Source: Fibrobacter sp. UWB11 (GTDB taxonomy: Bacteria; Fibrobacterota; Fibrobacteria; Fibrobacterales; Fibrobacteraceae). Taken from it: a DNA stretch of 64,000 nucleotides. The DNA is taken from the NCBI RefSeq assembly GCF_900143015.1, contig NZ_FSRT01000002.1, forward strand, positions 62,001 through 126,000, given 5' to 3'. The position numbers were made by a program, and so were the translations under genes. Positions 883 to 49,246 of this stretch are shown here, in pieces. The notes beneath the pieces are model-generated. The model was not told where the DNA came from, ran no database searches, and worked only from the letters and a program-made list of their open reading frames with translations. The stretch's first letter is position 1. Each line of letters begins with the position of its first letter.

Positions 883-2280
883 TGTAGAAAACAACTCTTC
901 AATCTTTGCGACAATCCGAGATTGCTCATTAAGTGGTGGTAATGGAATTTGACACCGTTGAATTATTTCAAGAGTGAGGTTTGGAATAGATGTAACTTTT
1001 GTTTGGTTTAATAACAACTCTTGTATAAAAGACGAATTAAGAGCGTATACCACATATTTTAAGAAATCATCTTTTTTTAAATAAAGACGGACAATGGAAA
1101 TGGCTTGGTTTGTATTAAGTGGCAAATCTGATTTATGAACGATAGCTGTTCGTCCTAACGAACCTGCAATTGTAATAAGTATATCCCCTTCTTTAATAAT
1201 AGATCGCGCGAGAAAACCTTGATGGGTTGCGGAATCTATAAATTTCATATTCGAGGAATTAATTTTTAGCATTCCAGGAATGTTTTCTGCGCGAATAAAA
1301 CCGACACCGTTGTCTATATAAGCGACATTTCCCCCGCGTGGAGTTGTTCCTTTTGTAATTAAAGAAGAAAGACTACCCAAAGCAACCCAATACCAATTTT
1401 CGGGTATTTCGAAAGGTTCGTCCTCTATCTTCTCATAATGGGGGTTATCACGTGTTATTCGTTCTAGCAAAACGCTGGCGGGTTCGTCGGATTTGTTTTG
1501 TGGAACGAGTTTTCCGTGGATGGCGAGGTCAAGGATTTTTTGGCGGGTTTGCTTGATATGGGTTTTGAGGAGTTCCTTGTTCTTTTCGATGGCATCGATT
1601 TCGGCGAAGGCTTCTTCAATTTTTGCGACAATACGTTGTTGTTCCGCTAAGGGCGGGAGTGGCACAGTCAAGTCTAAAACAACACTTCGAGCAATGCCAG
1701 GAACAAGTCCATTACCCTGAAATTTTAGGCGCTCATATTGCGAACCAAGAAAATTATACACATAAGCATTCAATGTTTTATCACTTATTCTAATCGCCAT
1801 AATTTGTCTGGCAATATGTGCTTTTTCAAAATCAGCGTAAACATAATTACCATAACCAGATCCTTTACACACAAGCAAGATATCACCTTTTTGCGCAATT
1901 ACCGAAGGATATTCAGTCCATCTATTCAATATCACATGATTATTAACAAAATTACTCGCTCCAGTAATATAAGGCAATCCTTTTTTTTCTGCATTGTATT
2001 TTTCTGGAGGAAAATCCTGTCCAGAAATTAATTCGCAAACATCACCCAGTCTCACCCATTCCCAATTCTCGGGAATTTCAAAGGGGGCTTCGCTTTTGTC
2101 GAGAGGGATAATTTGCTTGAGATCCTTCGACTTCGCGCCCTTGGCGCTCCGCTCAGGATGACATGCAGAGGAAATTTCTTTCAACAGGTCGGCGGTATTG
2201 CCGTCACTTTTGAGTTGTTGCGTGAGCTTTCCGCGAATGGCGAGGTCAAGGATTTTTTGCTTCAGGAGTTTCGTGTTCAT
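853..2280 (-). CDS. hsdS: Type I restriction-modification specificity subunit HsdS
   Basis: HsdS recognises the two half-sites of the target DNA in the HsdR2M2S complex. The 475-residue product has the usual two-fold plan: a conserved helix (MNTKLLKQKILDLAIRGKL), a first target-recognition domain, a central repeat (KQTRQKILDLAIHGKLVPQ), a second domain, and a terminal PPLNEQSRIVAKIEEL helix. The ATG at 2280 is chosen because the family N-terminus starts there; an upstream ATG at 2343 would overlap the Abi gene. The linker before the first domain contains CHPERSAKGAKSKDL, which is a translated copy of dispersed repeat family B (2121-2162). The second domain lies in the invertible segment. Confidence 0.93.
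   Translation of the reverse strand: MNTKLLKQKILDLAIRGKLTQQLKSDGNTADLLKEISSACHPERSAKGAKSKDLKQIIPLDKSEAPFEIPENWEWVRLGDVCELISGQDFPPEKYNAEKKGLPYITGASNFVNNHVILNRWTEYPSVIAQKGDILLVCKGSGYGNYVYADFEKAHIARQIMAIRISDKTLNAYVYNFLGSQYERLKFQGNGLVPGIARSVVLDLTVPLPPLAEQQRIVAKIEEAFAEIDAIEKNKELLKTHIKQTRQKILDLAIHGKLVPQNKSDEPASVLLERITRDNPHYEKIEDEPFEIPENWYWVALGSLSSLITKGTTPRGGNVAYIDNGVGFIRAENIPGMLKINSSNMKFIDSATHQGFLARSIIKEGDILITIAGSLGRTAIVHKSDLPLNTNQAISIVRLYLKKDDFLKYVVYALNSSFIQELLLNQTKVTSIPNLTLEIIQRCQIPLPPLNEQSRIVAKIEELFSTLDQMERNLV
1429..1448 (-). repeat. Right arm of 20-bp inverted repeat in hsdS
   Basis: Exact inverse complement of 293-312, lying inside the intact hsdS where its second target-recognition domain begins. 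The pair bounds a 1,156-bp segment whose inversion would exchange the two domains without breaking the frame. Confidence 0.9.
2121..2162 (-). repeat. Dispersed repeat family B inside hsdS
   Basis: The palindromic element GATCCTTCGACTTCG...GCTCAGGATGACA, also found between genes at 24824-24865 and 39727-39767, lies in frame within hsdS and encodes a polar, probably flexible linker of about 14 residues. Confidence 0.85.
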
Positions 2281-2305
2281 TCTTATTCTTGATAATAACA
2301 ATAAA

Positions 2306-3196
2306 TCAACATTTCCATAAATTGTGAGTTTTCCAATCGGCAAGAAAACCTATGCATTCAAACGGCAAATCCGAATATTCAGCCATCAGCGTTTCTATGC
2401 GTGTTCGCCATTCTGTTTTCGGAGCGCACTTCTTTAGCATCTGGCTCAATATCATCAAAACAACAAATGGCTTGTCGTTTGAAATTTTCGCCCATTCCGG
2501 ATGCTTTTTCACTGTTGGAATTTGCGGGCGAATGCCAAGACGACGATTCCATAATCTAGCATGGTGCGCACAGATATTACGAACGTGATTCAAGGTCAAC
2601 AACCAAGATTCCATAATAACAACGGGCACTCCAAATTCAGATGCAATTTCCTGTTGTATTGGGCGATGCATTTTACGATATATCGTCAAGATGTTCCCAA
2701 ATGTCAGCAACTCAGCGACCATCCAAAAAGGCAAATTTGGTTCGTCGTACTTATCCAAATAATGGGTAACAAACTGCTCTTTACTTTTGATATGCCGATT
2801 TACCTCCGCATCAATTGTCGCCATCAATTTCTGAAAATCAGCATCACAAAAGTTATTGTAATTGGCCTTATCCAAATAACCGAAGGGACCGTACTTTTGC
2901 GTAAAGACGGTTACCACTTTTGCCTTGAGCGCCGTTTCAACACGTTCCAGTGCGTCCATAATCAGACATCTCAAACGACGGTCAAAACGATAACGGCGAT
3001 AAATCTGATCCAACGACGTTCCTGGCTTTAGACAATCAGAATTATCTTGCTTGAACGGGAACAAGTAAGCACTAAAATGATAATAACTGATATTGGATAA
3101 AATATCAACTAAAGACGCCTTCTCTGCAACAAGCCCCCTTTCTATTAATCTATCGGCTTGCTGTTCATAAGATAATGACGGCTTTAAGTACTTCAT
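2306..3196 (-). CDS. Abi_2 family (AbiD/AbiF-like) protein
   Basis: The 296-residue product matches the Abi_2 family (abortive infection AbiD/AbiF-like): an N-terminal YLKPSLSYEQQADRLIERGL segment, an ISYYHFSAYLFPF motif near residue 36 and the hallmark RNICAHHARLWNR near residue 206, a HEPN-like RxxxH nuclease motif. Family members stop phage growth at the cost of the infected cell. It lies between hsdM and hsdS and has its own AGAGGTG ribosome site directly before the ATG at 3196. A hairpin with a T-run separates it from hsdM, so its expression may be reduced relative to hsdRM. The family assignment is firm; the anti-phage role here is inferred from family and neighbours. Confidence 0.9.
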   Translation of the reverse strand: MKYLKPSLSYEQQADRLIERGLVAEKASLVDILSNISYYHFSAYLFPFKQDNSDCLKPGTSLDQIYRRYRFDRRLRCLIMDALERVETALKAKVVTVFTQKYGPFGYLDKANYNNFCDADFQKLMATIDAEVNRHIKSKEQFVTHYLDKYDEPNLPFWMVAELLTFGNILTIYRKMHRPIQQEIASEFGVPVVIMESWLLTLNHVRNICAHHARLWNRRLGIRPQIPTVKKHPEWAKISNDKPFVVLMILSQMLKKCAPKTEWRTRIETLMAEYSDLPFECIGFLADWKTHNLWKC

Positions 3197-3210
3197 TTCA
3201 CCTCTGGATA

Positions 3211-27319: not shown

Positions 27320-28363
27320 ATGAATTCAAAATTTGTCACACCTCTTATTTTTAGTTCGGCTCTCACATTGGGAGCGTTAAGCTTTGTTGCTTGTGGTGAA
27401 GATAGTAACCCCGGTTTTCCCGGTGGCCAGTCTACCGGTAATAGCTCTTCCAGCGTTTACGTTCCGCCAGAGCCAACACCGACCACAGCTATTGTATTCT
27501 CGGCTCTCAGCGCACCTCCGAGCCTTACAAAGATTGTTTTCGATGGCACTTTGACACTTGACCTCAGCGACTCGAACACGGTCATGGACATTAATGCAGT
27601 CCGCTTCACTGGTGTCGACTTCATGATTGTCAAAAAAGAAACCCAAGTACCGCAGGGTACCGTAAACATAGCTCAGCCTAGGGACTACGTAAACACCTTG
27701 GTCTCTACAGTCAGCTTGTCTGAAATGGGTGTCACCACGGACCTCGATGTCGGCTATACCGATTGCGGTGAGTTCGAACTCATCATCACGGCATACGCAG
27801 ACGATGGCTACGTGCCTTCGACCTCTGTTGCAAGAATTCCGTTTACTCGTAGCGAAGAAAAGTGCAAGGTTCCGGAAAGTTCTTCTTCTGCAGAACCGGA
27901 AGCACCGGGCATTCCGCTCACGTCTGTCGAACTCCAGTTCAACACCAAAATCAACAGATGCTTTAGCGCTGCAACCGGAGCAATCTCTGCAGACGAAACC
28001 GGCGATGTTTGCTTCAAGGCTACAAGTTCAACGGCTATTGGTTTGTACAGCACAACCGGATTTAAGTTTGCAATCTACAACAACAGAAACGATGGTGATG
28101 ACTGGAACGACTGGACACCGAACTGGCTGCCGGATGTTCCGCAAACAACTAGCTTCACCTACCTTTCTAGCTCCTTGCAAGAAACCATTGGAAACTTCAT
28201 CAGTGAAATCGGTGAACAGTTCGTCGTTGGCGTAGCCCCGACATACGCTCCGCTCACTGGTTCTGCAGCAGGTTTCGTAGCATTCGGCGTAAAGGAATCC
28301 ATTCCGCCTGATGCAAACGGCAACGTCACAATGACGCTTATTATCTACAAGGCCGCTCAGTAA
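27320..28363 (+). CDS. Lipoprotein of unknown function
   Basis: I do not recognise this 347-residue protein. It has a lipoprotein signal (SFVAC, about Cys26), a short SSSS-containing linker with PPEPTPTT, a beta-rich middle part and a second linker (PESSSSAEPEAPG, about 190-202) before the C-terminal half. Two linker-separated domains of about 130-150 residues are likely. It has its own terminator and stands alone between uvrB and gpmI. Export and anchoring are well supported; function is not. Confidence 0.8.
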   Translation: MNSKFVTPLIFSSALTLGALSFVACGEDSNPGFPGGQSTGNSSSSVYVPPEPTPTTAIVFSALSAPPSLTKIVFDGTLTLDLSDSNTVMDINAVRFTGVDFMIVKKETQVPQGTVNIAQPRDYVNTLVSTVSLSEMGVTTDLDVGYTDCGEFELIITAYADDGYVPSTSVARIPFTRSEEKCKVPESSSSAEPEAPGIPLTSVELQFNTKINRCFSAATGAISADETGDVCFKATSSTAIGLYSTTGFKFAIYNNRNDGDDWNDWTPNWLPDVPQTTSFTYLSSSLQETIGNFISEIGEQFVVGVAPTYAPLTGSAAGFVAFGVKESIPPDANGNVTMTLIIYKAAQ

Positions 28364-30131: not shown

Positions 30132-30165
30132 CGTCATTGCGAGCCCTGCAAGGGCGAAGCAATCC
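30132..30165. repeat. Dispersed repeat family A
   Basis: CGTCATTGCGAGCCCTGC then AAGGGCGAAGCAATCC: the clearest intergenic copy of family A, starting four bases after the gpmI stop codon. Confidence 0.88.
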
Positions 30166-30180
30166 ACAAGAATTCAAAAA

Positions 30181-30320: not shown

Positions 30321-30818
30321 ATGACCGATCCCAAGAAGAGCAAAGGCGGTTTTGGAATAGTCGAAGCTTTGGTAGCGGCGGCTGTACTTGGTTTTATGTA
30401 CATGGCTATAATGAACATGCACGGAGGAAACCACGATTCCCTGCTACGCATTCGAGGCCGTGACGGAGCAACCGAAGTCGCCCAGAACCTTATCGATTCC
30501 CTTGGGGCACTTGGACTTGCCAGCCTTTACGACGAAAATCTCGCCAAAGACGATGCCGGCAACATAAAACCTATAATTATCGACCCTATCGTGCGCACCT
30601 GGCAAGGCCAGCCTGGAGCTGTCACCAATACTATGACAGTGAACTACAGAGCCGAAATTACCGTTTCGCGCGATGACGAATACAAGACCAAGACCTCGTC
30701 CATGCTCCTTGGTACAGACAGCGTTGAGCACGTGTACGCCAAAAGGCTAGACGTCACCATCAGCTGGAAATTCAAGAACTCCACGCAGTCCATAAGCGTA
30801 TCGGGGGTAGTCAAATGA
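30321..30818 (+). CDS. Type IV pilin-like minor pilin (PilV-type)
   Basis: The 165-residue product has a prepilin leader: after MTDPKKSKG the peptidase should cut before FGIVEALVAAAVLGFMYM, leaving Phe at +1 and Glu at +5. One N-terminal hydrophobic helix is followed by a small soluble domain. It fits the PilV/GspI class of minor pilins. The stop codon overlaps the ATG of the next gene (ATGA, 30815-30818), so it opens a three-gene pilin operon. GAGG lies upstream of the start. Confidence 0.85.
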   Translation: MTDPKKSKGGFGIVEALVAAAVLGFMYMAIMNMHGGNHDSLLRIRGRDGATEVAQNLIDSLGALGLASLYDENLAKDDAGNIKPIIIDPIVRTWQGQPGAVTNTMTVNYRAEITVSRDDEYKTKTSSMLLGTDSVEHVYAKRLDVTISWKFKNSTQSISVSGVVK

Positions 30819-32242
30819 TTCCTTTTACAGACGAAAGGCAAAAATATAAAGCCGGTTTTACCCTCATGGAGCTCATGGTCTACATGGGCATTGTTGGCAT
30901 TATTGTAGTTATCGCTGGCGAAGCATTTAGCAATTCTACCAAGGTCCGCGTACGCACCGACAACATGATTAGGGCAAACCAAGATGCAGGAAATATCGCA
31001 TCAATCATTAAAGAAGACGTAGAACCGTTGGGAACAAAAAGCGCCAATGCGACTGGAAGCACCTCATTTACTTTTTCTGGAAAAAGAATCTACATGGACC
31101 CCGATAACGCAGACGGCGACAAAAGGGATTCATCCTCCTTCAGAATTGAATCTAGCGGCGGAAACAGCGTACTGACTTTCAAGCGCACGCGATACAACGA
31201 AGAAACAGGTGCATACCAAGCAATCGACTCCATTCGTTGGTACGTTGAAGACCGAATCCTCAAGCGCAGCTGTATCACTATAGAACCAGCATCCGGCTTT
31301 GCCTTACCCGATGACGATCCTTGCGTTACTTCGGGCAATGAACCCAACCCCGTAGAGATGGTCCCCAATGTTTCAGCCTTTAATGTCGAAGCCGCACAAC
31401 CAGGAGCATTGGAAGGCGCCACGCAAATATTCCCGGCAAGCGGATCGAGCCAATACATGCTTTTTCCGCGCTTGGATGCAAGTGGCGAATATGACAGAAC
31501 CTTTGTCTCTTTCAACACCGCCAATGAAACAAACGAAGCTTTTGCCGCAGGTACTGCAATTACACTTTCTGGTTTTTTCTCAAACTACAAGAACCAAGAA
31601 GACAATCTTGAAAACGCAATTTACGCCGAAGGTGATCAAAGAGTAAACCAAGCGATTGCCATAAACCCTTCCGATTACTTAGATGCCGACTGGAAAACGC
31701 AATGTGCAGAACACGGCGTCATGAACTTTGGTCCTGACACGGTCTACGAAATTTCATTTGAAGTGACATCTCAAGCCGATAAGGATAGAAGCATTAACTT
31801 TGTCCCAAATAAAGACCACATGTCTGTAGGCTTTAGAAAAAGTACTGGTGGCTATGCCATGTCACACGGTCACATTATATTGCCAGACTTTTTCTTTTAT
31901 CCGCCCAATGCTGCAGATGGCGCAGGAAAGCGCGTCATGAGGTTTACAGTCCCTGAACACGTAGGAAGTGTATGCCTAGCATTCACCTTCGCATTCTATT
32001 CACCTCTAGTCGCATCGGGCTTGGTGACCATAAAAGATTTGAAAGTAACGCAGGTGGCTACAGCCAACTACAAGTTCAGCGGATTCAACTCAGAAGCAAG
32101 TAGCAATATAAAAGAAAAGAAAAAAGTGAAAGCATTAAAGCTCAGGTTGCAAATAAGCCGTGGTGCTAAAAACGGCGGCAGCGGTGAAACAGGTAACGTG
32201 GACTTGATTATTCCTATTCCGAGCAACGGAACGGGCGACTAA
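30815..32242 (+). CDS. Type IV pilin-like minor pilin (PilW-type)
   Basis: The 475-residue product has a clear prepilin motif: cleavage after KAG, then FTLMELMVYMGIVGIIVVIAGEAF with Phe +1 and Glu +5. The large soluble part (about 40-475) is longer than standard PilW and contains a beta-rich domain at about 280-430 (TVYEISFEVTSQ, VGSVCLAFTFAFYSP), which resembles carbohydrate-binding or galactose-binding-like sandwiches, an inference from the strand pattern only. It is translationally coupled to the upstream pilin, and the giant pilin-like gene follows after 28 bp. Confidence 0.82.
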   Translation: MIPFTDERQKYKAGFTLMELMVYMGIVGIIVVIAGEAFSNSTKVRVRTDNMIRANQDAGNIASIIKEDVEPLGTKSANATGSTSFTFSGKRIYMDPDNADGDKRDSSSFRIESSGGNSVLTFKRTRYNEETGAYQAIDSIRWYVEDRILKRSCITIEPASGFALPDDDPCVTSGNEPNPVEMVPNVSAFNVEAAQPGALEGATQIFPASGSSQYMLFPRLDASGEYDRTFVSFNTANETNEAFAAGTAITLSGFFSNYKNQEDNLENAIYAEGDQRVNQAIAINPSDYLDADWKTQCAEHGVMNFGPDTVYEISFEVTSQADKDRSINFVPNKDHMSVGFRKSTGGYAMSHGHIILPDFFFYPPNAADGAGKRVMRFTVPEHVGSVCLAFTFAFYSPLVASGLVTIKDLKVTQVATANYKFSGFNSEASSNIKEKKKVKALKLRLQISRGAKNGGSGETGNVDLIIPIPSNGTGD

Positions 32243-32270
32243 TTTTAGTGTGAGAAGTGAGGTTTTCGAT

Positions 32271-35200
32271 ATGAGAACGGATTATTTAAAAAGCAGAGCC
32301 GGTGTTTCTCTTATCACCGTACTTATGTTTATGCTCGTTGCCACAATCGCAGCGACTGCCACTTGGAAATTTATCTCAAGTGAAGGATTCTCTAGCGCGA
32401 GTCGTATGCTCAAGCGCGAAGCCTACCAGAGCGCACAAGCGGGTATCGAAAACGCCCGTAGTTGGATGACATTCCACGGAAACGATGTAGGCGCCCTCAT
32501 CAAGCAGTTCCAAGAAAAAGGTAAGCCCATCAACATTGATGACCAGTTGCGTCCCTTGCAAAAGGCTGGGCAAAACTATCACGTGTGGGTGACCGGTGTA
32601 AACACGACTAATTCGACATACAAGATAAAAGTTCTTTCTACAGGTGAATCCCGTAACGAAACGAGCCATACCGAAGTGGCCATATTCAATGTAGACGGCT
32701 TGTATCGTGTCAAATTACCTGTTACGCAATCATCTTCCAATTTTGCAGAAGCATTCCACGGAGAACTGAAATCCATTGACAAACTCAACATCGACAAGGC
32801 TGTAATCACGCAAACTCCAGACGTAAGAAACGCTGGAGGACAAGCCATGAATGACGTCACCGTAACAAATTATCTTATTTTGGATGGTTCCTTTTACGCC
32901 AACGATAAAAACAACATCAAAGAGCTATACGTAACAGGAGACGTCGGAACCTGTTCGGGAATCAATGTGACAAACAACATGTATGTTCACGGCAACTTTT
33001 ATCCCGGCAACGTTAAATCCACTATTGGCGGTTCACTTTACGCAGAAGGGAATATTAATTTAAGAGATTTTTACCCTTACACAGCTATTACAGGGGGATG
33101 CTACAATGATAAACCTGGAGATCTAGAAGTTGGTGGCAACATCACGGCCGACACTCTTATTTATTATGACCATGGCGGTGCACACGCTTTTAATGCAAAA
33201 AGCAGCGTGGTATTCAATTCCATTAGATTTCCTTCGTCTTTCAACGATGCAACCGTCATTGACAGCATAATAGTAGGACACAATGTTTATGTCAAAGGAA
33301 ATTCTCCAGGAAAAATGGGTAACGCCCAACCATGCACAGGTTACCCTCATTTCAGCAACAAAATCGACGGACGAGATGCAATTCGAAGAACCAGGTTTGG
33401 TTCAGGAGATGGAGATAAAATTTGGATTTATGGATTTTATACTTATCTAAGTGGTACCACTCCAAATAATTTTACAGTCTGCACAGAGACCGGTTCAACA
33501 ACCGGCAAAAAAATCAATACAAAATGCAGAACAACGGATGGATTTACTTGTGCAAGATCACTAAATTACAACAAATGGCTTGGTTACAAAGGTCAATTCT
33601 TAGAAACAGAACCTTCAGAAGACGAAATCGCCAGTTGGAAAGCAAACAAACTCGACATATACAAAGCCAAATTAGAAGAAAGAGATGAATCGTGCGATCG
33701 AATAAAAACACCTATCCAGGTGAATACCAAAATTTTTGAACTCGGACTCACACATAGCAAGACATCTCCCAATGGTTGCAATGCCAATATATGGTCTGAA
33801 TGGGATAACTCGACAGAACTTATGAATGAATGTTACCAAATAGCCAAAAACAATGGTAAACTATACAACGACAACTGGTTGATATTAGAGTTCGGCACCC
33901 CCATGGGGTGGCAAGCACACAAGATGGGCGGAACTTTAAACGGCAACTTTATCTTCAAGTTCAACGCAAACAGTACGAACCACTCGGCCTATCTCCCCGC
34001 AACATCAGGAAATTCCAAAGTGTTTCTGTATTTGCCGAATGGTTGGCCAAGCCCATCAAACTATGCTATTGAATTCGCCGAGAAAAGCGGCGACCACCGT
34101 TATTTCGTCTTTAGCGAAGATGATGTAGTCCGCTTTGACATGAATACTCTCGAAAACCCCATGAGCGGTTCTGTGGTCATGGGCAAAAATGCCTCTACCG
34201 GAAAATGCGCCAGCTTTAACACCGTAGGCAACAACACCTTATACGCCCGTTTTGACCAAGAATTGACAGAAGACCTTTCTGACGCCTCTATTATTTGCGA
34301 CAACGACGGATCAAATACCTGTTCCGGCATGGCCGCCGCAAGTTCGAGTTCTGGAGGATCAGGTGGCGACGACGGTTACGACCATTACTATGTATCCATG
34401 GCCCCACAACTGGGCATTTCTCTTGAATCACAAACAAAGAGCTTTGAAAAAGTAACCGACAGTGACAACTTGGCCTCCTCATTTATCATATTACCCCGTG
34501 TAATATCCTTGCCCAATGACCCTTATGGAACTCTCGGCGACTATATCAACGTAATTACATTAAATAAGCCACAGAATGCAGCTCCACTAGCCAAGACAAA
34601 CTTGGATCTCGGTTCGTGCACCAAGGTAAACAGCTACTCCTCTTTGGATATAAGCAGTTTGAACTCAAAAATGTTTTCTCCTGATGGGAACAGGCTCCCC
34701 AAAGGAACATACAAGTGCGATATTTCAGCAGATGGCTATGACGAAACCGTCCCGGTATGGCTTGCTATAGACAACAAGGAATTACGCAATTTGCACCAAG
34801 TTTCGTTTGCCGAACCAAGCCAAGAAATTGGTGGAAGCGAGACCAAGGACATCTATATACGTTTACAACCCAAGATTAATTCAATCGATTTGCAAGTTTC
34901 TTGCCCGACACCACCAAGCAACTGGAGTTATGAATATGTACTTAATGATGTTACTACAGGTGGCACATGCACATTTACTGTAGCAAACCCCTATAACACA
35001 GAAAGACTGATGAAGTTGTTTACCATAAAAACAGATGCAGCCACAAGTGGAACCATGACGTTCCAGATTCTCGACGGTGAAAACTACATTCCAACCGCTC
35101 CGACCACTACAGGTCTCTACATGGGCACCACCGGATCTGTTAACCGAGCTCAAGCAACATTCGAACAACTCGATGATTATTGCCACACACATGCAGACGA

Positions 35201-38200
35201 GTGCCCCACCGAAGAAGAACGATACAACTGGAGGGATTGCGAAGTCCCTGCCGATGAGAAATGGGTCGAACCCGATGGAACAGGATTCCAAACCACAGAA
35301 CTTAACAACGCCTGGTTAGTATCCTCTGCCATCAACACCACTGTAAAGTTTATCGATGTGTCAAAACAAGACTTGCCCTGTATAGTCATCATCCCTGAAG
35401 AAGATAATTCTTGTACCTTTACAGAGACACACAAGAACTGCATATTGAACGCCTCAGCCAAGGAAAAAGTTCACAAAGTCAAATTCAAGTTTAAAAATGT
35501 CGAATCGGGCAAAAACCCGTCCTTTACAGTACATAGAGGCTCTGACCCCAAGGTCTGTCGATATAATGAAGCCAACGCAGAACACGAATGTATCGTAAAC
35601 GTGTACAGGGAAGGTAAAATATCCATGAGCATCGATACAGACAACGATGACAACAAGGATTTTAAATACTGGCAATGCGAAGGCCCCAGCTGTCCCAATC
35701 ACGAAAAGTGGAACTCGAACAACTTCTCGGAATTTACAGTCTCTGATAACGAAACCGTCATAACAGTGATGTATAATGAAGTCGACAAGCATTGCTTCTT
35801 TGACAAGTTCGAAAACAGTGCCGCAGCCTGTAACGATCTTCCGTCAAACGAAAGAAAGGAATACTGCATTGACTACTGCGCCCCCGCAGACCATTGCGAA
35901 TCGGCATCCATCACTGACGGCAACTTTGCCGATGCAAAATGGCACTTGGTCCGTGGCAAAATAAGCATGGTTGATTACGAAAACGGTATATTATCCATTC
36001 AAAAAAATGGCGACATCACCTTAATGAGCACCATCAATGCCGATGCAGGAACACACGGAACACTGAAGGCTTTGGTTCGCTTGCCTAGAGACGACTCTCA
36101 ATCAGGATTCTTGTTGGGTTCCGATGCAGAAGCAACAAGCTACCTAAAACTCAGCGTTTTCATAGACGACTACGGCAGTGCCGCAGTTCGTGTATGCAAT
36201 GCCGGTGGCACAACATGCCGTGAAGAATCACTGTCTTTGTCCGTAACAGAAAATGACATGGTCATGATTGAAGCCGAAATTACCGCTACAGAAATAACGG
36301 TTGCATTATCGAAGGGTAACGAAAGCACGAAGGCAAGTACCAAATTCCTTCTTGGCACATGGAGTGGCTACTTTGAAGGTTCGCATGTCGGATTGCGCAT
36401 GGCAAGCCCCAAGTTCAAGATTTACGGTATTGGCTGGAAGAGTACAAACTACGAATGTTTCAACACCTACCCCACAATCAAATGTTCTTTCGCGGCCGTA
36501 GCCTATTATGGAGTTATTCCGACAACAAAACCGGTAAAGCCATGGGTCGGCTATTCTGGCTGGGAAGGCTGGAATTCAAGCGATTGCACCGAAAAATACT
36601 ACTACCGAGGTGACGACGCTTGCAACGGTGACAATTATGGGTACACCACATGCGAAGACGATGGCTACATTTTTGATTTCACAAGTAGCGGAAAGCATGG
36701 TTACACTGATTTGAGTGGAACCGACATAAGAACCGCAAAAGTCGGCCTCGAATGTCAAAACACTTATTCATCGGATAATACCGAAGAAATGATGTGGGCA
36801 AATGACAGTGCTCATTGCGGTGTTTTCTGGACGGGTCCTCAGAACGTATGCTCTACAACAGATAAGATTACTGGCGAAATTTCTTTGCCCGGATCGGGCC
36901 AACAATCTGCTGCATTTACAAGAGCTATAAATATGCGTTCCGGCCAGCTGAAAATAGACCTCAAAAACGACGATAATAGCGAAGTATGGGTATGGTTATA
37001 CAGCCAAGGAACAGGAGATGAGCTCTACCCCAGCGAACACGTTTCCATGAATGGAGAAACAAAGACATTTAATGCCAGCGATTTCGAAACAGAAACGGGT
37101 GGATTCGACATTTCTAAGGTAAAGAGTGTACACTTCGAAAACAAGGGTAGCGGAAGCGTAACCGTAAAGAACGTTTCTGCTCTCTGCGAAACGGCAGTTC
37201 GAGTCAAGAGTTGCCAAGCCGAAGACAAAGTAAAAGGAACTTCCAGCTTTATGTTTATAGGAGGCAAGACATATATGTATGTCCAACTTACGGCTGCTAT
37301 AAACAATAGAGATGGTGTGGACAATTACCAAATTATCGCCCATAGACATTCCACCAATACGACCAAGACATACGAAATAGACAAAGCAGATATCGTGGTA
37401 TATGGTACAGAAAATGCTATGATTACCATACCGAGAGGTCTCGATGACATCAATGGATTACTTAGCGACTGGTCATTCAGCCTCAAGTTAAAATCGGATG
37501 GCGCAGACTATGGCGAAGAAAAAGAATGTCGAACAATCACAGGATTTACACCGGCTTGCAAAATCGAACAACCCGGCCCTGGAGAAGATCCTGAAGTGAA
37601 TCAAAACGCAGCACATTTCAAAGCATGGATATACAACTGCAATGGTTGCAGTTACACAGTCACACTCGATGGCGATGAAAAAATCAGTGGAAACTGCACG
37701 GCCAAAACAGGACATGGGCTTGTGTACGCCCCCAGTAATAAATGTGACATCAAAATCGATAACAAAGACATGCCCACCCTAACTGTCGGAACAACCTATA
37801 AGTTTAGGTTATATAGCCCTGATGGAGATTTTGACGAGTGCGAAAAGACATTTACAGTTAAAGAAAACGGCACGGAACCACAGCCAAGCAATGTGAATTT
37901 GGATTGTGATAATCTTAATGTTACAGTCGACGGTACTTCTGTAACGATTGAAACTAAATCAACGGGATGTGGTCCAGCAGAAGATTGCACATACAACATA
38001 GTACCTGCTGCCGATGGAAGTGGCGATTACAGTGATAACCAAACCATCAATTTCTCCTATGGAGGAAGTCAAACTTCAGTGACGCACAAACTTACCATAA
38101 GCAACGGGAAAAAATCTGACGATTGCAACTTTAACGTAACCTACAGTTCTAGTTCAGCAAAGAGCAGTAGTAGTTCTGCGAAGAGCAGTAGCAGTTCTGC

Positions 38201-38552
38201 AAAGAGCAGCAGTAGCTCTGCAAAGAGCAGCAGTAGTTCTAAGACCAACGATTTCGATTGCAATGATCATAATTCAATTGTAATGCAACCAGGAACTGGA
38301 GATGTACAAGATATCGAAGTTAGCGCAGGGCAATGTGTAAAATACACTATGCAACAGTCTAACACATTAAGAATCGGAAGTTGGTGGTCTCCACACTGTC
38401 CAGTTAATATCAAAATAAAGAATTGCGATGGAACATTTACCACTATATCACACGATTGTTCTGGTTGGATTAGTGTATATCAAACGCAAAAATGCACCAT
38501 TTACGCAAAACCAGAACTAGACATAAAATGGAAAATCTATGACTGGAATTAA
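32271..38552 (+). CDS. Giant PilX-like pilin-anchored surface protein (2,093 residues)
   Basis: The ATG at 32271 is preceded by GTGAGG; an earlier GTG at 32250 would only add seven residues. The N-terminus (SRAGVSLITVLMFMLVATIA) looks like a PilX-type prepilin: Gly then a hydrophobic helix, without Glu at +5. The very long Cys-rich extracellular part includes beta-helix-like GGSLYAEGNINL and VGGNITADTL stretches (about 200-310), an SSSGGSGGDDG linker near 695, a repeat-type domain near 1110-1170, a LamG-like sandwich at about 1215-1395, a four-fold SSSSSAK linker (about 1960-1990) and a C-terminal Trp/Cys-rich domain of about 100 residues. It is probably a pilus-tip or surface adhesin; plant-fibre binding is inference. 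Confidence 0.85.
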   Translation: MRTDYLKSRAGVSLITVLMFMLVATIAATATWKFISSEGFSSASRMLKREAYQSAQAGIENARSWMTFHGNDVGALIKQFQEKGKPINIDDQLRPLQKAGQNYHVWVTGVNTTNSTYKIKVLSTGESRNETSHTEVAIFNVDGLYRVKLPVTQSSSNFAEAFHGELKSIDKLNIDKAVITQTPDVRNAGGQAMNDVTVTNYLILDGSFYANDKNNIKELYVTGDVGTCSGINVTNNMYVHGNFYPGNVKSTIGGSLYAEGNINLRDFYPYTAITGGCYNDKPGDLEVGGNITADTLIYYDHGGAHAFNAKSSVVFNSIRFPSSFNDATVIDSIIVGHNVYVKGNSPGKMGNAQPCTGYPHFSNKIDGRDAIRRTRFGSGDGDKIWIYGFYTYLSGTTPNNFTVCTETGSTTGKKINTKCRTTDGFTCARSLNYNKWLGYKGQFLETEPSEDEIASWKANKLDIYKAKLEERDESCDRIKTPIQVNTKIFELGLTHSKTSPNGCNANIWSEWDNSTELMNECYQIAKNNGKLYNDNWLILEFGTPMGWQAHKMGGTLNGNFIFKFNANSTNHSAYLPATSGNSKVFLYLPNGWPSPSNYAIEFAEKSGDHRYFVFSEDDVVRFDMNTLENPMSGSVVMGKNASTGKCASFNTVGNNTLYARFDQELTEDLSDASIICDNDGSNTCSGMAAASSSSGGSGGDDGYDHYYVSMAPQLGISLESQTKSFEKVTDSDNLASSFIILPRVISLPNDPYGTLGDYINVITLNKPQNAAPLAKTNLDLGSCTKVNSYSSLDISSLNSKMFSPDGNRLPKGTYKCDISADGYDETVPVWLAIDNKELRNLHQVSFAEPSQEIGGSETKDIYIRLQPKINSIDLQVSCPTPPSNWSYEYVLNDVTTGGTCTFTVANPYNTERLMKLFTIKTDAATSGTMTFQILDGENYIPTAPTTTGLYMGTTGSVNRAQATFEQLDDYCHTHADECPTEEERYNWRDCEVPADEKWVEPDGTGFQTTELNNAWLVSSAINTTVKFIDVSKQDLPCIVIIPEEDNSCTFTETHKNCILNASAKEKVHKVKFKFKNVESGKNPSFTVHRGSDPKVCRYNEANAEHECIVNVYREGKISMSIDTDNDDNKDFKYWQCEGPSCPNHEKWNSNNFSEFTVSDNETVITVMYNEVDKHCFFDKFENSAAACNDLPSNERKEYCIDYCAPADHCESASITDGNFADAKWHLVRGKISMVDYENGILSIQKNGDITLMSTINADAGTHGTLKALVRLPRDDSQSGFLLGSDAEATSYLKLSVFIDDYGSAAVRVCNAGGTTCREESLSLSVTENDMVMIEAEITATEITVALSKGNESTKASTKFLLGTWSGYFEGSHVGLRMASPKFKIYGIGWKSTNYECFNTYPTIKCSFAAVAYYGVIPTTKPVKPWVGYSGWEGWNSSDCTEKYYYRGDDACNGDNYGYTTCEDDGYIFDFTSSGKHGYTDLSGTDIRTAKVGLECQNTYSSDNTEEMMWANDSAHCGVFWTGPQNVCSTTDKITGEISLPGSGQQSAAFTRAINMRSGQLKIDLKNDDNSEVWVWLYSQGTGDELYPSEHVSMNGETKTFNASDFETETGGFDISKVKSVHFENKGSGSVTVKNVSALCETAVRVKSCQAEDKVKGTSSFMFIGGKTYMYVQLTAAINNRDGVDNYQIIAHRHSTNTTKTYEIDKADIVVYGTENAMITIPRGLDDINGLLSDWSFSLKLKSDGADYGEEKECRTITGFTPACKIEQPGPGEDPEVNQNAAHFKAWIYNCNGCSYTVTLDGDEKISGNCTAKTGHGLVYAPSNKCDIKIDNKDMPTLTVGTTYKFRLYSPDGDFDECEKTFTVKENGTEPQPSNVNLDCDNLNVTVDGTSVTIETKSTGCGPAEDCTYNIVPAADGSGDYSDNQTINFSYGGSQTSVTHKLTISNGKKSDDCNFNVTYSSSSAKSSSSSAKSSSSSAKSSSSSAKSSSSSKTNDFDCNDHNSIVMQPGTGDVQDIEVSAGQCVKYTMQQSNTLRIGSWWSPHCPVNIKIKNCDGTFTTISHDCSGWISVYQTQKCTIYAKPELDIKWKIYDWN
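38150..38245 (+). repeat. Tandem SSSSSAK-coding repeat
   Basis: Four near-identical 21-base units (AGCAGTAGTAGTTCTGCGAA type) encode a Ser/Ala/Lys linker before the last domain of the giant pilin-like protein. Unit number may vary by slippage. Confidence 0.85.
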
Positions 38553-38563
38553 CAAATAACAGC

Positions 38564-38591
38564 AAAGCTCCCCCCACCGGGGAGCTTTTTT
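38564..38591 (+). terminator. Terminator of the pilin operon
   Basis: AAAGCTCCCC and GGGGAGCTTT pair around CCACC, followed by T-rich sequence, 12 bp after the stop codon. Confidence 0.88.
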
Positions 38592-38641
38592 CATATTTAC
38601 TCGTGCAAGAAATGCACATTTTTTCTAAATTTCGCCGTACT

Positions 38642-39664
38642 ATGAGTGAAGCTATTAACAATGTCAAGCAGGCCTTTGATGCAGAACTTGCACAAACGGA
38701 CCTCACCAATCAAGAAGCGGTCAACAATCTCCGCGTAAAGTACCTCGGCAAGAAGGGCGCCGTCACCGACCTCATGAAGCAGATGGGTTCGCTCAGCGCC
38801 GAAGAACGCCCTGCTTACGGCAAGCTCGTGAACGAACTGAAGGTTGCTGTTTCCGAAGCAATCGACAAGGCTATCGAAACGGCAAACGAAGCCGCTCTCC
38901 AGAAGAAACTCGCCAGCGGCGCTGTCGATATCACGCTCCCGGGCGCAGGTATCGCCGCCGGTTCTACGCACCCGCTGTACGACGTCCGCGAAGAAATCAT
39001 CGACTTCTTTGCGCAGATGGGTTTTGATGTGGACTTCGGTCGCGACATCGAAACGGATTGGTACAACTTTGAAGCGCTCAACACTCCGCCTGACCATCCG
39101 AGCCGCGACATGCAGGACACATTCTACGTCGACAACAAGGTCATGCTCCGCACGCACACGTCGGGCACCCAGATTCACTACATGGAAACGCACAAGCCGC
39201 CTTTCCGCATGATTGCTCCGGGCCACGTGTTCCGCGTCGATAACGATGCGACCCACGCTCCGATGTTCCAGCAGTGCGAAGGTCTTGTCGTTGACGAAAA
39301 CATTAGCTTCGCCGACCTCAAGGGCGTGCTCCAGGTGTTCATGAACAAACTCTTTGGCGCAGGCGTCAAGACTCGCTTCCGTCCGAGCTTCTTCCCGTTC
39401 ACGGAACCGTCTGCAGAAATGGACGTGAGCTGCGTGTTCTGCGGTGGCAAGGGTTGCCGTCGTTGCAAGGGCACGGGCTGGATGGAAATCGGTGGTTGCG
39501 GCTCTGTGGACCCGAACGTGTTCAAAAACTGCGGCATTGATTCCGAAAAGTTCACAGGCTTTGCATTCGGTTTCGGTCTTGACCGTATCGCCATGCTCCG
39601 CCATGAGATTCCGGAAATCGGACTTTTGACAGCCAACGATCAGAGATTCCTGAGCCAATTCTAA
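38642..39664 (+). CDS. pheS: Phenylalanyl-tRNA synthetase alpha subunit
   Basis: The catalytic subunit of the enzyme that charges tRNA-Phe. The ATG at 38642 begins MSEAINNVKQAFDAEL, the usual PheS coiled-coil start; an ATG 39 bases earlier would add an unrelated leader. The 340-residue protein shows RVKYLGKKGAVTDLMKQMG, the class II motif 2 region FRVDNDATHAPMFQQCEG, FRPSFFPFTEPSAEMDV and motif 3 (GFGLDRIAML). pheT does not follow, so the two subunit genes are apart here. A symmetric terminator follows. Confidence 0.96.
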   Translation: MSEAINNVKQAFDAELAQTDLTNQEAVNNLRVKYLGKKGAVTDLMKQMGSLSAEERPAYGKLVNELKVAVSEAIDKAIETANEAALQKKLASGAVDITLPGAGIAAGSTHPLYDVREEIIDFFAQMGFDVDFGRDIETDWYNFEALNTPPDHPSRDMQDTFYVDNKVMLRTHTSGTQIHYMETHKPPFRMIAPGHVFRVDNDATHAPMFQQCEGLVVDENISFADLKGVLQVFMNKLFGAGVKTRFRPSFFPFTEPSAEMDVSCVFCGGKGCRRCKGTGWMEIGGCGSVDPNVFKNCGIDSEKFTGFAFGFGLDRIAMLRHEIPEIGLLTANDQRFLSQF

Positions 39665-46627: not shown

Positions 46628-49246
46628 ATGGCAGAGCAAAACAAGCGTATTCTCAAAGATTTTTTGAATGAACTTCTCGAAAAAGTCAACGGACACCGTT
46701 CCGACATATCGTCCGAAGACGTTTTAGAACAATTTATGGCATGGGCCGAGGCCCGCGGAACAACGTTATATCCCGCTCAAGAAGAAGCAATTTTGGAAAT
46801 TTTAGACGGCAAAAATGTCATTCTCAACACGCCGACCGGAAGTGGAAAATCCATGGTTGCGCTTGCTCTGCATTTCGACAGCCTTGTGCACAACCGCCGT
46901 AGCGTTTACACGTGCCCCATCAAAGCATTGGTGAACGAAAAATGGATGGCGCTCTGCAAGGAATTTGGCGCCGAAAACGTCGGACTTTCGACCGGTGACG
47001 CAACCGTCAACCGTGATGCGCCCATCATTTGCTGCACGGCAGAAATTCTTTCGAACATGGCGCTCTGTGAAGGCGAAACGCTCACCATCACAGACATCGT
47101 GATGGATGAATTCCATTACTATTCCGACCGCGAACGCGGTGTCGCCTGGCAAGTTCCGCTTTTGACGCTCCCGCAGTCGCGATTCCTTTTGATGAGTGCA
47201 ACCGTTGGCGCTACGGAATTTTTCGAACGCGACATGACAAAGCATACAGGTCGCGAATCGGTAACGGTCCGTTCTTCACAGCGCCCGGTGCCTTTGGACT
47301 TTAGCTATAGCACTACAGAAATTTCGACCGAAGTGCAAAAGCTCGTGAACGAAGGCAAAGCACCTGTTTACGTTGTTCACTTTACGCAGGCTGCGGCCGC
47401 AAGCAACGCCCAGAACTTTATGAGTCTGGACCTCTGCACCAAAGAAGAAAAAGTCAAAATTAACGAAGCGATTAAAGAGGTCCGTTTTTCTAGCCCATAC
47501 GGCCCGGATGTCAAGCGCTGGCTCAAGCAAGGCATTGGCATTCATCATGCAGGGCTCTTGCCCAAGTACCGCATTCTTTGCGAAAAGTTGGCGCAACAAG
47601 GTTTGCTCAAAGTCATTTGCGGAACAGACACGCTCGGCGTTGGCGTGAACGTTCCTATCCGCACGGTCCTTTTCACGCAGCTCTGCAAGTACAGCGGTGA
47701 CAAGACCGCCATTTTGACCGCGCGAGATTTTCACCAGATTGCAGGACGCGCAGGTCGTAAAGGTTTTGACAATGTCGGTTACGTTGTCGCGCAAGCGCCG
47801 GAACATGTCATCGAAAACTTGAAACTTGAAGCAAAGTCCCGCACGACCGGTAAAAAGTTCCAAAAGCGCAAACCGCCTGAACACGGCTACATTCCGTTTG
47901 ACGAAAACACATTCAAACGTTTGATTGACTCCGCACCGGAACCGCTTACATCAAGTTTCCAAGTCAACCACGGGATGCTTTTAAACATTTTAAGCCGCCC
48001 GACGGACGGCTGCCGTGCCATGCGAGCACTCCTTAAGGATTGCCACGAAAGTGCAGCAAGCAAAAAGCAGTTGCAGCACCGCGCCTTCCTCTTGTTCCGC
48101 AGTCTCGTCGAAAAGAAGATTATCGAATTTGTTCCAGCGGTAGCCAAAGGTTACAGCCACTTACGCGTTAACATGGACCTGCAAGATGACTTTTCGATGA
48201 ACCAACCGCTTTCGCTGTACCTGCTCGACACACTGCCGAAGCTCGACAAGGACTCGCCAGAATACGCACTCGATGTCATTACCTTGTGCGAAAGTATTCT
48301 TGAAAATCCTGATGCCATTTTGCGCATCCAGCAAAGCAAAGCTCGCGATGCCCGCATGAACGAACTCAAAGCGCAGGGCATGGAATACAACCAGCGTCTC
48401 GAAGAACTGGAAAAAGTCGAATACCCCAAGCCGCTCCGTGACTTTATCTACGATACGTTCGACGCCTTTGCCGATATTCACCCATGGGTAGACGAAAACA
48501 TTGAGCCAAAATCTATTGTGCGCGAAATGTTCGAGAATTTCAGCACATTCAGTGGTTACGTAAAGCAGTACAATTTGCAACGCATGGAAGCAATTTTGCT
48601 GCGCCACTTGAACGGCGTTTACAAGGTGCTTTCGCAGACAGTTCCCGACGGCTACAAGAACGAAGAACTCTTGGAAATGCAGGATTACCTGGGCGAAATG
48701 ATCCGCCGCGTAGACTCGAGCCTCTTGGAAGAATGGGAAAAGATGGCGCATCCGGAAGATTACCAGAAACGCTTGGACGAAGGTACCGCCGAAGACGAAG
48801 CCGAGAAAGCATTCGGTGCAGACAAGGCCGCCGCCGACATCACTTACGACAAGAAGCGTTTCCTCAGCTTGGTGCGCCAACGCATTTTCCAGATTATGAT
48901 GAGCTTGCAAAAGCAAGACTTCAACGATGTGCTGGACAGCCTTGCCGACGACCTCGCCGAAGGCGAACTTTTGGCAGATGCCGATGGCACGCCATGGACC
49001 GAGAAGTGCCTCATCGAAACGATGGCCGCTTACACTGCCGAACACCACAGATTCCGTATGGATGTGGAAGGCCGTTCCCTCACCCACACTATCGTCACCT
49101 ACGAAGGCAACATTATGCAAATCCAGCAGATGCTGCAAGACGAGGAAGGATTTAACGATTGGAGCATTGATTTCACGGTCAATCTCGACGAAAGCCGAGA
49201 AGCCGGAATGCCATTAATAAAACTTGCACGGATTGGAGAAGTTTAG
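46628..49246 (+). CDS. Ski2-like DEAD/DEAH-box helicase (DUF3516 type)
   Basis: The 872-residue ATP-dependent helicase has Walker A in [14 protein letters not shown] (about 64-72), DEFHYYSD as motif [11 protein letters not shown] as motif III and [17 protein letters not shown] as motif VI. The long C-terminal half fits the DUF3516-type extension seen in bacterial Ski2-like proteins. The substrate, RNA or DNA, is unknown; in bacteria these enzymes are poorly studied. It is divergent from rfbA and followed after 24 bp by an outer-membrane protein gene, without an obvious functional link. Confidence 0.9.

Follow-up and report, generated by a model that had tools for sequence, protein, structure and literature searches.

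A giant PilX-like prepilin of Fibrobacter with a CBM_E1-like terminal module, a predicted exchangeable-tip pilus adhesin

The last gene of a prepilin operon in Fibrobacter sp. UWB11 encodes a 2,093-residue protein that, in our judgement, is probably an exchangeable-tip pilus adhesin presenting a glycan-binding module to plant cell walls, a reading that rests on sequence and modelled folds and in which glycan binding, location at the tip and assembly into a pilus are inferred. By these computational measures, the giant has a prepilin signal, lacks Glu5, stands last in its operon and combines a conserved multi-module body with predicted ConA-like and CBM_E1-like modules. Among its relatives, the giant is conserved family-wide, its tips are hypervariable, one tip cassette has been cleanly replaced, and tip classes are held in common with lipoproteins. 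The following features were assigned within the window (the whole 64,000-nt stretch analysed).

30321..30818, + strand: PilV/GspI-like minor prepilin, 165 aa, Glu5 present (ORF; weak GspI and PilV matches)
30815..32242, + strand: PilW/GspJ-like minor prepilin, 475 aa, Glu5 present
32271..38552, + strand (ATG at 32271): giant modular prepilin of the K-type (PilX/GspK-like), 2,093 aa (229 kDa when mature)
32271..32303, + strand: leader peptide, residues 1-11, ending in SRAG
32304..32714, + strand: predicted pilin head, residues 12-148, in which a long N-terminal helix precedes a four-strand sheet, Thr at position 5 (AlphaFold2 model)
32742..33293, + strand: beta-solenoid-like part, residues ~158-341 (strand pattern in the model; profile and fold matches)
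33753..35885, + strand: family core, residues 495-1205, Ig/cohesin-like beta-sandwiches (homologue coverage; folds at model positions 725-1161)
35934..36443, + strand: ConA/LamG-like domain, residues ~1222-1391 (fold match)
36900..37250, + strand: conserved beta-sandwich, residues ~1544-1660, the last module common to most members (block pLDDT 68-93)
38145..38243, + strand: Ser-rich linker (SSSSSAK)n, residues 1959-1991, a 21-nt tandem repeat
38244..38549, + strand: CBM_E1-like terminal module, Trp/Cys-rich, residues 1992-2093 (profile match 5klc; fold match 5kle)
38564..38588, + strand: intrinsic terminator 3' of the operon, 10-bp stem

The original prediction placed two minor pilins with prepilin motifs ahead of the giant, and the ORFs, the conserved loci and the motifs themselves (KGG/FGIVEA in the PilV-like protein, KAG/FTLMEL in the PilW-like protein and RAG/VSLITV in the giant; the slash marks the cleavage site) bear this out. 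Only the PilW-like protein passes the Pfam N_methyl cut-off (27.2 vs 21.2 bits); the PilV-like protein stays below it (14.3 bits), and its GspI match is weak (NCBIfam, E 0.023). The gene order is I-like, J-like, then the K-like giant, with pheS located 3' of the operon. In the 40 loci that were fetched and searched with tblastn, pilW adjoins the giant in all 40 and pilV was detected in 32; because this neighbourhood and the G before the cleavage site are conserved, chance is an unlikely explanation for the prepilin operon. A plasmid origin found no match by tblastn. The UWB11 genome encodes a single prepilin peptidase and has six matches to the T2SSE-family ATPase.

The pilin-type N-terminus claimed for the giant is likewise supported: PilX_N matches with an E of 9.5e-5, and the G at position -1 has no exception in 17 aligned sequences (the UWB11 giant included). 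The PilX_N score (22.7 bits) remains under the gathering cut-off of 25.5, so the protein is termed PilX-like here and not a PilX_N member; the match to GspK is weak (NCBIfam, E 0.073). Position 5 is occupied by T, A, V or M, and Glu5 is found in none of 95 relatives. In the AlphaFold2 model of residues 12-1205 (mean pLDDT 81), the head is pilin-like. K subunits lack Glu5 and cap filaments, according to the parts of PMC9934059 and PMC10191384 available to us, and the giant's sequence resembles this K-type (PilX/GspK) kind of minor pilin. The proposed PilX-like identity thus holds up on the missing Glu5, the I- and J-like pilins upstream and the predicted long helix and beta-sheet, with adhesion, tip location and processing only inferred.

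Sets of I, J and K subunits are common to type IV pili and type II secretion systems (PMC10191384, available in part), and the weak NCBIfam matches include both GspK (E 0.073) and GspI (E 0.023), so the operon might instead encode the tip of a secretion pseudopilus, in which the giant would be a pseudopilin acting on substrates, by recognising or pushing them, and not a surface adhesin. We consider this improbable: a 229-kDa subunit with an extracytoplasmic part of ~2,000 residues would, we infer, be ill-suited to a short periplasmic pseudopilus, whereas the predicted glycan-binding folds at the giant's end, and tips common to giants and lipoproteins, fit a surface role better.

Behind the head, the predicted beta-solenoid-like part resembles repeat proteins in profile searches (best E 6.5e-4), and the N-terminal model matches tapirin 6n2b (Z 11.6) and ComZ 6qvi (Z 10.1) by fold. 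The tapirin match has an rmsd of 4.7 over 293 aligned residues, a score that repeat folds can reach by arrangement alone, and a profile search of the solenoid-like part found no sequence match to tapirin. Coverage of the family core from residue 501 on is about 37-42 of 43 homologues and falls off past residue ~1650. The LamG-like domain of the original prediction was recovered as a fold match to CBM66 4b1m (Z 15.5, rmsd 2.6, 149 aligned), and the SSSSSAK linker and Trp/Cys-rich terminal domain also lie where that prediction had them. A modular pilin joins a pilin head to a non-pilin functional module, and the pilin-like model together with the ConA-like and CBM_E1-like modules meets this definition. 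The lists of fold matches cover mostly single domains, and parts of the giant that are not listed were barely tested. PilY1 was considered as a hidden partner and none was found: the giant has no Pfam match to the beta-propeller PF05567, even with E values up to 1 allowed, and there was none in 41 genomes, the latter in a search without a working positive control.

The terminal module is supported, by sequence and predicted fold, as a relative of CBM_E1, a beta-glucan-binding module of family CBM81; binding itself is inferred. A PDB search with the module's single sequence found no match, and profiles alone succeeded: a 10-row profile matched CBM_E1 5klc with an E of 7e-9 (39.3 bits, positions 11-107 of 107), and a template-free model aligned 90 of 95 residues with 5kle_A, CBM_E1 in complex with cellopentaose (Z 10.8, rmsd 2.5). 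The Trp positions of the two also align, which is only a lead as to binding. Tips of this class occur in 19 of 80 genomes of the genus, with 21 matches in all, on 17 giants and four lipoproteins; none is on a CAZyme, the other kind of carrier considered.

Across 80 giants, the last ~100 residues are hypervariable and fall into 31 clusters. Among the six closest pairs (at least 89% identity over the first 350 residues), only one shows a clean change of tip class: in L042/L067, near-identical otherwise, the swapped cassette comprises the module at the tip, its stop codon and the terminator that corresponds to the one in UWB11. The tips remain similar in L088/L101 (85% in the last block) and in L066/L085 (97%), those of L058/L117 are 49% alike and in the same cluster, one ORF of L068/L094 ends early, so that this pair is no clean case, and in L079/L086 the tips differ but identity fails to return 3' of the gene. 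These pairs count against tip exchange as a general rule. The exact Ser-linker DNA pattern is confined to the giant's gene (three matches genome-wide), and only 19 of 80 proteins have SSSS immediately ahead of the tip; a role of this DNA as a genome-wide recombination anchor is thus unsupported. The only repeats in 37500-39000 are the linker repeat and the terminator; neither repeated inversion sites nor alternative 3' segments were seen there. Rpn nuclease genes occur just downstream of giants, with none seen in the window of UWB11 (the queries for this count were drawn from the same neighbourhoods and from related genomes).

The 31 clusters and the cassette replacement could also be explained by diversifying selection from phages that exploit the pilus tip, the giant being a tip pilin whose ends vary to avoid phages or host immunity and not to widen the range of plant glycans. 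This is unlikely, albeit not negligible, given that the tip classes include at least one that is CBM_E1-like and that two tails have matches to CBM64 (best E 5.8e-5). Profiles of four other tip classes had no PDB match; carbohydrate binding is therefore supported for the CBM_E1-like class only, and the assignment of these classes to known CBMs is unsupported.

The fibro-slime family is implicated in cellulose adhesion, and tips of the same kinds as those of the giants terminate lipoproteins, some of them encoded next to fibro-slime genes; of 42 lipoproteins compared at E 1e-3, 16 have a tip in common with a giant and the other 26 have none. We tentatively suggest, with less than even confidence, a shared repertoire of ~100-residue tips, largely absent from domain libraries, whose cassettes (module, stop and terminator) move between and within genomes onto giant tip pilins and fibro-slime-linked outer-membrane lipoproteins, so that adhesins for plant fibre would diversify in a shufflon-like way without requiring an inversion system, possibly helped by Rpn nucleases.

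The giant's size, about ten times that of a usual pilus subunit, was initially called unusual. This is true against the literature, with 860 residues for the largest modular pilin cited in the available part of PMC8179133, but not within Fibrobacteraceae, where giants of about 1,560-3,200 residues are present in 95 of 111 genomes and a giant K-type pilin is a standard feature. Such a size, together with lipoproteins that carry the same tips and need no pilus, could suggest a fibrillar surface adhesin outside any pilus, held in the inner membrane by its pilin helix or released. The conserved prepilin cleavage site and an operon with two more prepilins leave us strongly doubtful of this.

Under the reading that we prefer, a pilus adhesin, the operon would encode the complex at the tip of a type IV pilus, in which the PilV-like pilin would serve as the I subunit, the PilW-like pilin as the J subunit and the giant as the filament-capping K subunit. 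The prepilin peptidase would cut after Gly11, and an extension ATPase would assemble the pilus beneath the giant, whose ~2,000-residue stalk would extend outward at the tip. Held out by the flexible Ser linker, the CBM_E1-like module may bind beta-glucan chains of plant cell walls, and pilus retraction would draw the cell to the fibre; relatives could switch targets through recombination that replaces, behind the constant body, a cassette made up of tip module, stop and terminator. In the portions available to us, modular pilins are described as adhesins (PMC8179133), and pilin A7UG50 is tabulated as missing in cellulolysis-deficient mutants (PMC6851124). Counting against a tip adhesin are the sub-cut-off PilX_N and PilV scores, the restriction of the CBM_E1-like class to 19 of 80, and a report, available in part, that F. 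succinogenes depended on vesicles in the rumen of sheep and that type IV pili were preferred by the ruminococci (PMC8092306).

The present analysis names a concrete candidate molecule for fibre attachment in Fibrobacter, a putative pilus-tip subunit ending in a CBM_E1-like module, and supplies a set of expressible ~100-residue modules. How Fibrobacter, a gut bacterium that breaks down fibre, attaches to crystalline cellulose without a cellulosome is a long-standing question. If tips indeed select the plant polysaccharide, tip exchange would account for the division of fibre types among related strains. New here are the hypervariable ~100-residue ends, the exchangeable terminal module, the tip kinds shared with lipoproteins and the family-wide giant, which extends modular pilins beyond the cited 860 residues on a predicted capping subunit. 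The titles and abstract openings searched contained no minor pilin with a carbohydrate-binding module, and the listings and passages on Fibrobacter pilins held no mention of the giants.

Among known systems, the PilY1/PilC tip adhesin of diderms is likewise large, modular and located at the pilus tip; unlike it, the giant has no PilY1 beta-propeller match. Tapirins of Caldicellulosiruptor, T4P-linked cellulose-binding proteins, are the best fold match of the N-terminal model, with an rmsd of 4.7 and no sequence match found; solenoids can be alike through their repeats alone. Both PilX/GspK and the giant follow I- and J-like pilins as the last gene and lack Glu5, but the giant has ~1,950 extra residues and scores under the Pfam cut-off; known K subunits are much smaller. 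CBM_E1 and the terminal module agree in the full-length profile match, predicted fold and aligned Trp positions, at only ~24% identity, and CBM_E1 is joined to an endoglucanase, whereas the Fibrobacter carriers are pilins and lipoproteins. The PilV adhesins of the R64 and TP114 shufflons combine a constant pilin body with interchangeable C-terminal segments of 69-113 residues that alter the target (PMC9045228, as far as available); no repeated inversion sites are seen in 37500-39000 at the giant's locus, and exchange is observed between genomes. The modular minor pilins PilC and PilB of Streptococcus sanguinis, as described in the accessible parts of PMC9934059 and PMC8179133, similarly graft adhesive modules onto a pilin head; PilC, which has an Ig-like and a ConA-like lectin module, is placed at the tip. 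PilC is a 52.8-kDa protein with Glu5, whereas the Fibrobacter giant is a 229-kDa, K-type protein without Glu5 that, unlike PilC and PilB, bears a CBM_E1-like tip behind a Ser linker and belongs to a family with hypervariable ends.

The pilin operon consists of three consecutive open reading frames on the forward strand, in agreement with the original prediction, which described the 30321-38552 region as a pilin operon ending in a 2,093-residue PilX-like adhesin:

30321-30818, + strand, ORF 1, PilV-like prepilin, 165 aa
30815-32242, + strand, ORF 2, PilW-like prepilin, 475 aa
32271-38552, + strand, ORF 3, giant prepilin-type protein, 2,093 aa counted from the ATG

The mature giant has 2,082 residues (229 kDa). 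The PilW-like prepilin scores above the Pfam cut-off, and the PilV-like prepilin below it, as does the PilX_N match on the giant (E 9.5e-5, 22.7 bits vs 25.5). The operon is flanked upstream by gpmI, whose last base is 30128, and downstream by pheS, which begins some 50 bases past the giant gene; a terminator with a 10-bp stem lies 3' of the giant stop codon. Both gene names were read off translations, without a family search. A palindromic-type repeat, GTCATTGCGAGC..GGCGAAGCAATCCA (30133-30166), located between gpmI and the operon, has one exact copy in the window and none in 100 shuffles. Upstream of gpmI, 27320-28363 encodes a lipoprotein-like protein of 347 aa containing a Ser-rich stretch, without a Pfam match, and a 53% identical relative occupies the same position in locus L049. 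At 46628-49246 lies a gene for a DEAD-box helicase whose DUF3516 domain is complete (E 1.1e-145).

The glycine at the cleavage site is invariant in 17 aligned sequences, and none of the 95 giants has Glu at position 5, which is occupied by T, A, V or M. In two reports, the K subunit is described as lacking Glu5 and capping the minor-pilin tip complex (PMC9934059, PMC10191384). Operon order and the missing Glu5, both features of sequence, point to the giant as the putative capping subunit. In the AlphaFold2 model of residues 12-1205 (mean pLDDT 81, pTM 0.53), a long helix at the N-terminus leads into four strands and then a solenoid-like stretch. The same genome encodes one prepilin peptidase (E 3.2e-28) and six matches to T2SSE-family ATPases; a search of 41 genomes for PilY1 found none, and gave no signal in any control genome either.

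Relatives of the giant were detected by tblastn in 50 of the 61 searched genomes of Fibrobacteraceae and, with a profile built from residues 1-300, in 107/167 genomes of Fibrobacterota (Fibrobacter, 76/80; other members of the family, 19/31; outside the family, 12/56, where G151, at 62 bits, was the only genome exceeding 30 bits among the matches listed). Many genomes carry two or three copies. Fetched regions together with 70 named loci yielded 95 distinct proteins. For the 80 whose stop codon falls within the locus, the median length is 2,436 residues (range 1,562-3,205, including the 11-residue leader). The original prediction regarded pilin-anchored proteins of this size as unusual, which holds in comparison with known modular pilins but not within the family, where giants are widespread and 84 of the 95 collected proteins exceed 1,500 residues. 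By title, all named loci belong to Fibrobacterota except two short contigs labeled Bacteroidales (L096, L100), which we suspect are probably misbinned Fibrobacter DNA. In all 40 fetched loci (40/40), pilW adjoins the giant gene, and pilV is detectable in 32/40. In one 91% identical pair (L098 6152-16344, L094 6146-16360), one giant ORF stops ahead of the tip region and the other continues, possibly a truncated allele or an assembly error.

Most of 43 relatives show homology to the giant across residues 1-300 and 500-1650, and past residue 1650, coverage drops from about 32 relatives to 1. For residues 1205-2093, the model (mean pLDDT 74) bears out the proposed LamG-like domain, with a ConA/LamG-like fold at about 1222-1391 (CBM66 4b1m, Z 15.5, rmsd 2.6, 149 aligned). 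Structure prediction, suggested originally as a check, matched the Trp/Cys-rich terminal domain (1992-2093, block pLDDT 73-93) to the fold of CBM_E1 with cellopentaose (5kle_A; Z 10.8, rmsd 2.5, 90/95 aligned, 24% identity, rank 27 in the fold list). As a separate line of evidence, a profile built from ten such modules matched CBM_E1 over the whole length (E 7e-9; next match, 0.42), with the GSW and GW tryptophan positions kept, along with two cysteines in the module's first part. CBM_E1, which we take to be the founding CBM81, binds mixed-linkage glucan, xyloglucan, Avicel and cello-oligosaccharides. CBM81 has been described as not fitting the type A/B scheme (PMC9079177). The best fold match of the N-terminal model was the C-terminal domain of Caldicellulosiruptor tapirin (Z 11.6, rmsd 4.7, 293 aligned), followed by beta-sandwiches that bind calcium and by the solenoid-containing Thermus pilin ComZ; the predicted tapirin likeness is a lead only, because repeats can attain such Z by arrangement.

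The tips, taken as the last 110 residues, are hypervariable: those of 80 complete proteins form 31 clusters (E 1e-4), the largest of which, with 10 members, includes the window's tip. Loci L042 and L067 are 98.6% identical over 8,805 bp, as far as the Ser linker; the next ~350 bp, comprising the tip module, stop codon and a terminator-like hairpin different in each, are unrelated, after which 98.5% identity resumes for 2,592 bp. Judged from the alignment, a cassette has been replaced here, and its left boundary lies inside the linker. Among six close pairs (N-terminal identity at least 89%), tips differ in three (L042/L067, L079/L086, L058/L117) and are kept in two, and one pair is spoiled by a truncated ORF, so that the evidence is mixed. 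The gpmI-pheS site holds other pilin-giant sets in other genomes: in L049, L053, L061 and L045, gpmI is 98-99% identical to that of the window, and pheS 96-99% where covered (2/4), with giants aligning at about 25-47%.

Of 80 Fibrobacter genomes, 19 carry the window's tip class, with 21 matches, 17 on giants and four on open frames of 431-448 aa. The latter are lipoproteins (lipobox-like start, Ser-rich linker; two PKD stretches in the one scanned), each encoded in a cluster with a fibro-slime protein (identified by TIGR02148 at E 1.9e-31 in the one scanned, and by tblastn in the others) and Rpn-type nucleases (PDDEXK_2). In L168 and L169, the lipoprotein/fibro-slime cluster lies directly 3' of the giant gene. 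Of 42 lipoproteins of this kind, 16 have a tip in common with some giant (E 1e-3; six clusters) and 26 do not. A related lipoprotein in the window's genome (C2:45886-46635) has a tip without a match to that of any giant, and the 20 kb read there contain no fibro-slime gene. Clusters that combine Rpn-type nucleases, lipoproteins with tips and a fibro-slime gene recur across genomes (L168 10675-17488, L170 7183-15347, L214 3308-17646) and may represent a mobile or hot-spot region. Rpn-type genes are present within 2 kb downstream of 21/61 giants compared with 1/63 matched upstream positions (Fisher p 6e-7), and at 3 kb, in 11/37 compared with 2/60; the p value overstates independence because the loci are related and the queries were taken from such neighborhoods. 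Genomes carry 2-25 Rpn-type genes (41 searched; 8 in the window's genome), none of them near the window's operon.

Most likely, the giant caps a type IV pilus as the first subunit to be assembled and bears a glycan-binding end; binding, tip location and assembly are all inferred. Its stalk would end in a flexible linker carrying a glycan-binding module, and this module could let the pilus catch glucans of plant cell walls. Earlier work has implicated type IV pilins in Fibrobacter adhesion: pilin A7UG50 is tabulated as absent from cellulolysis-deficient mutants (PMC6851124), three of four pilin genes are up on cellulose, on average less than twofold (PMC4668043), and pilus genes are reported throughout the phylum (PMC4704652). 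The contrary view, that S85 lacks a complete pilus gene set, appears in PMC3079729, and sheep-rumen expression data favor vesicles for F. succinogenes, which counts against a leading role of pili (PMC8092306). Modular pilins with lectin modules are already known (PMC8179133, PMC9934059), and in the shufflon PilV, C-terminal segments of 69-113 residues can be exchanged while the pilin before them stays constant (PMC9045228). New in the giant are the scale, the K-type (PilX/GspK-like) carrier, the CBM_E1-like end and the tips shared with fibro-slime-linked lipoproteins.
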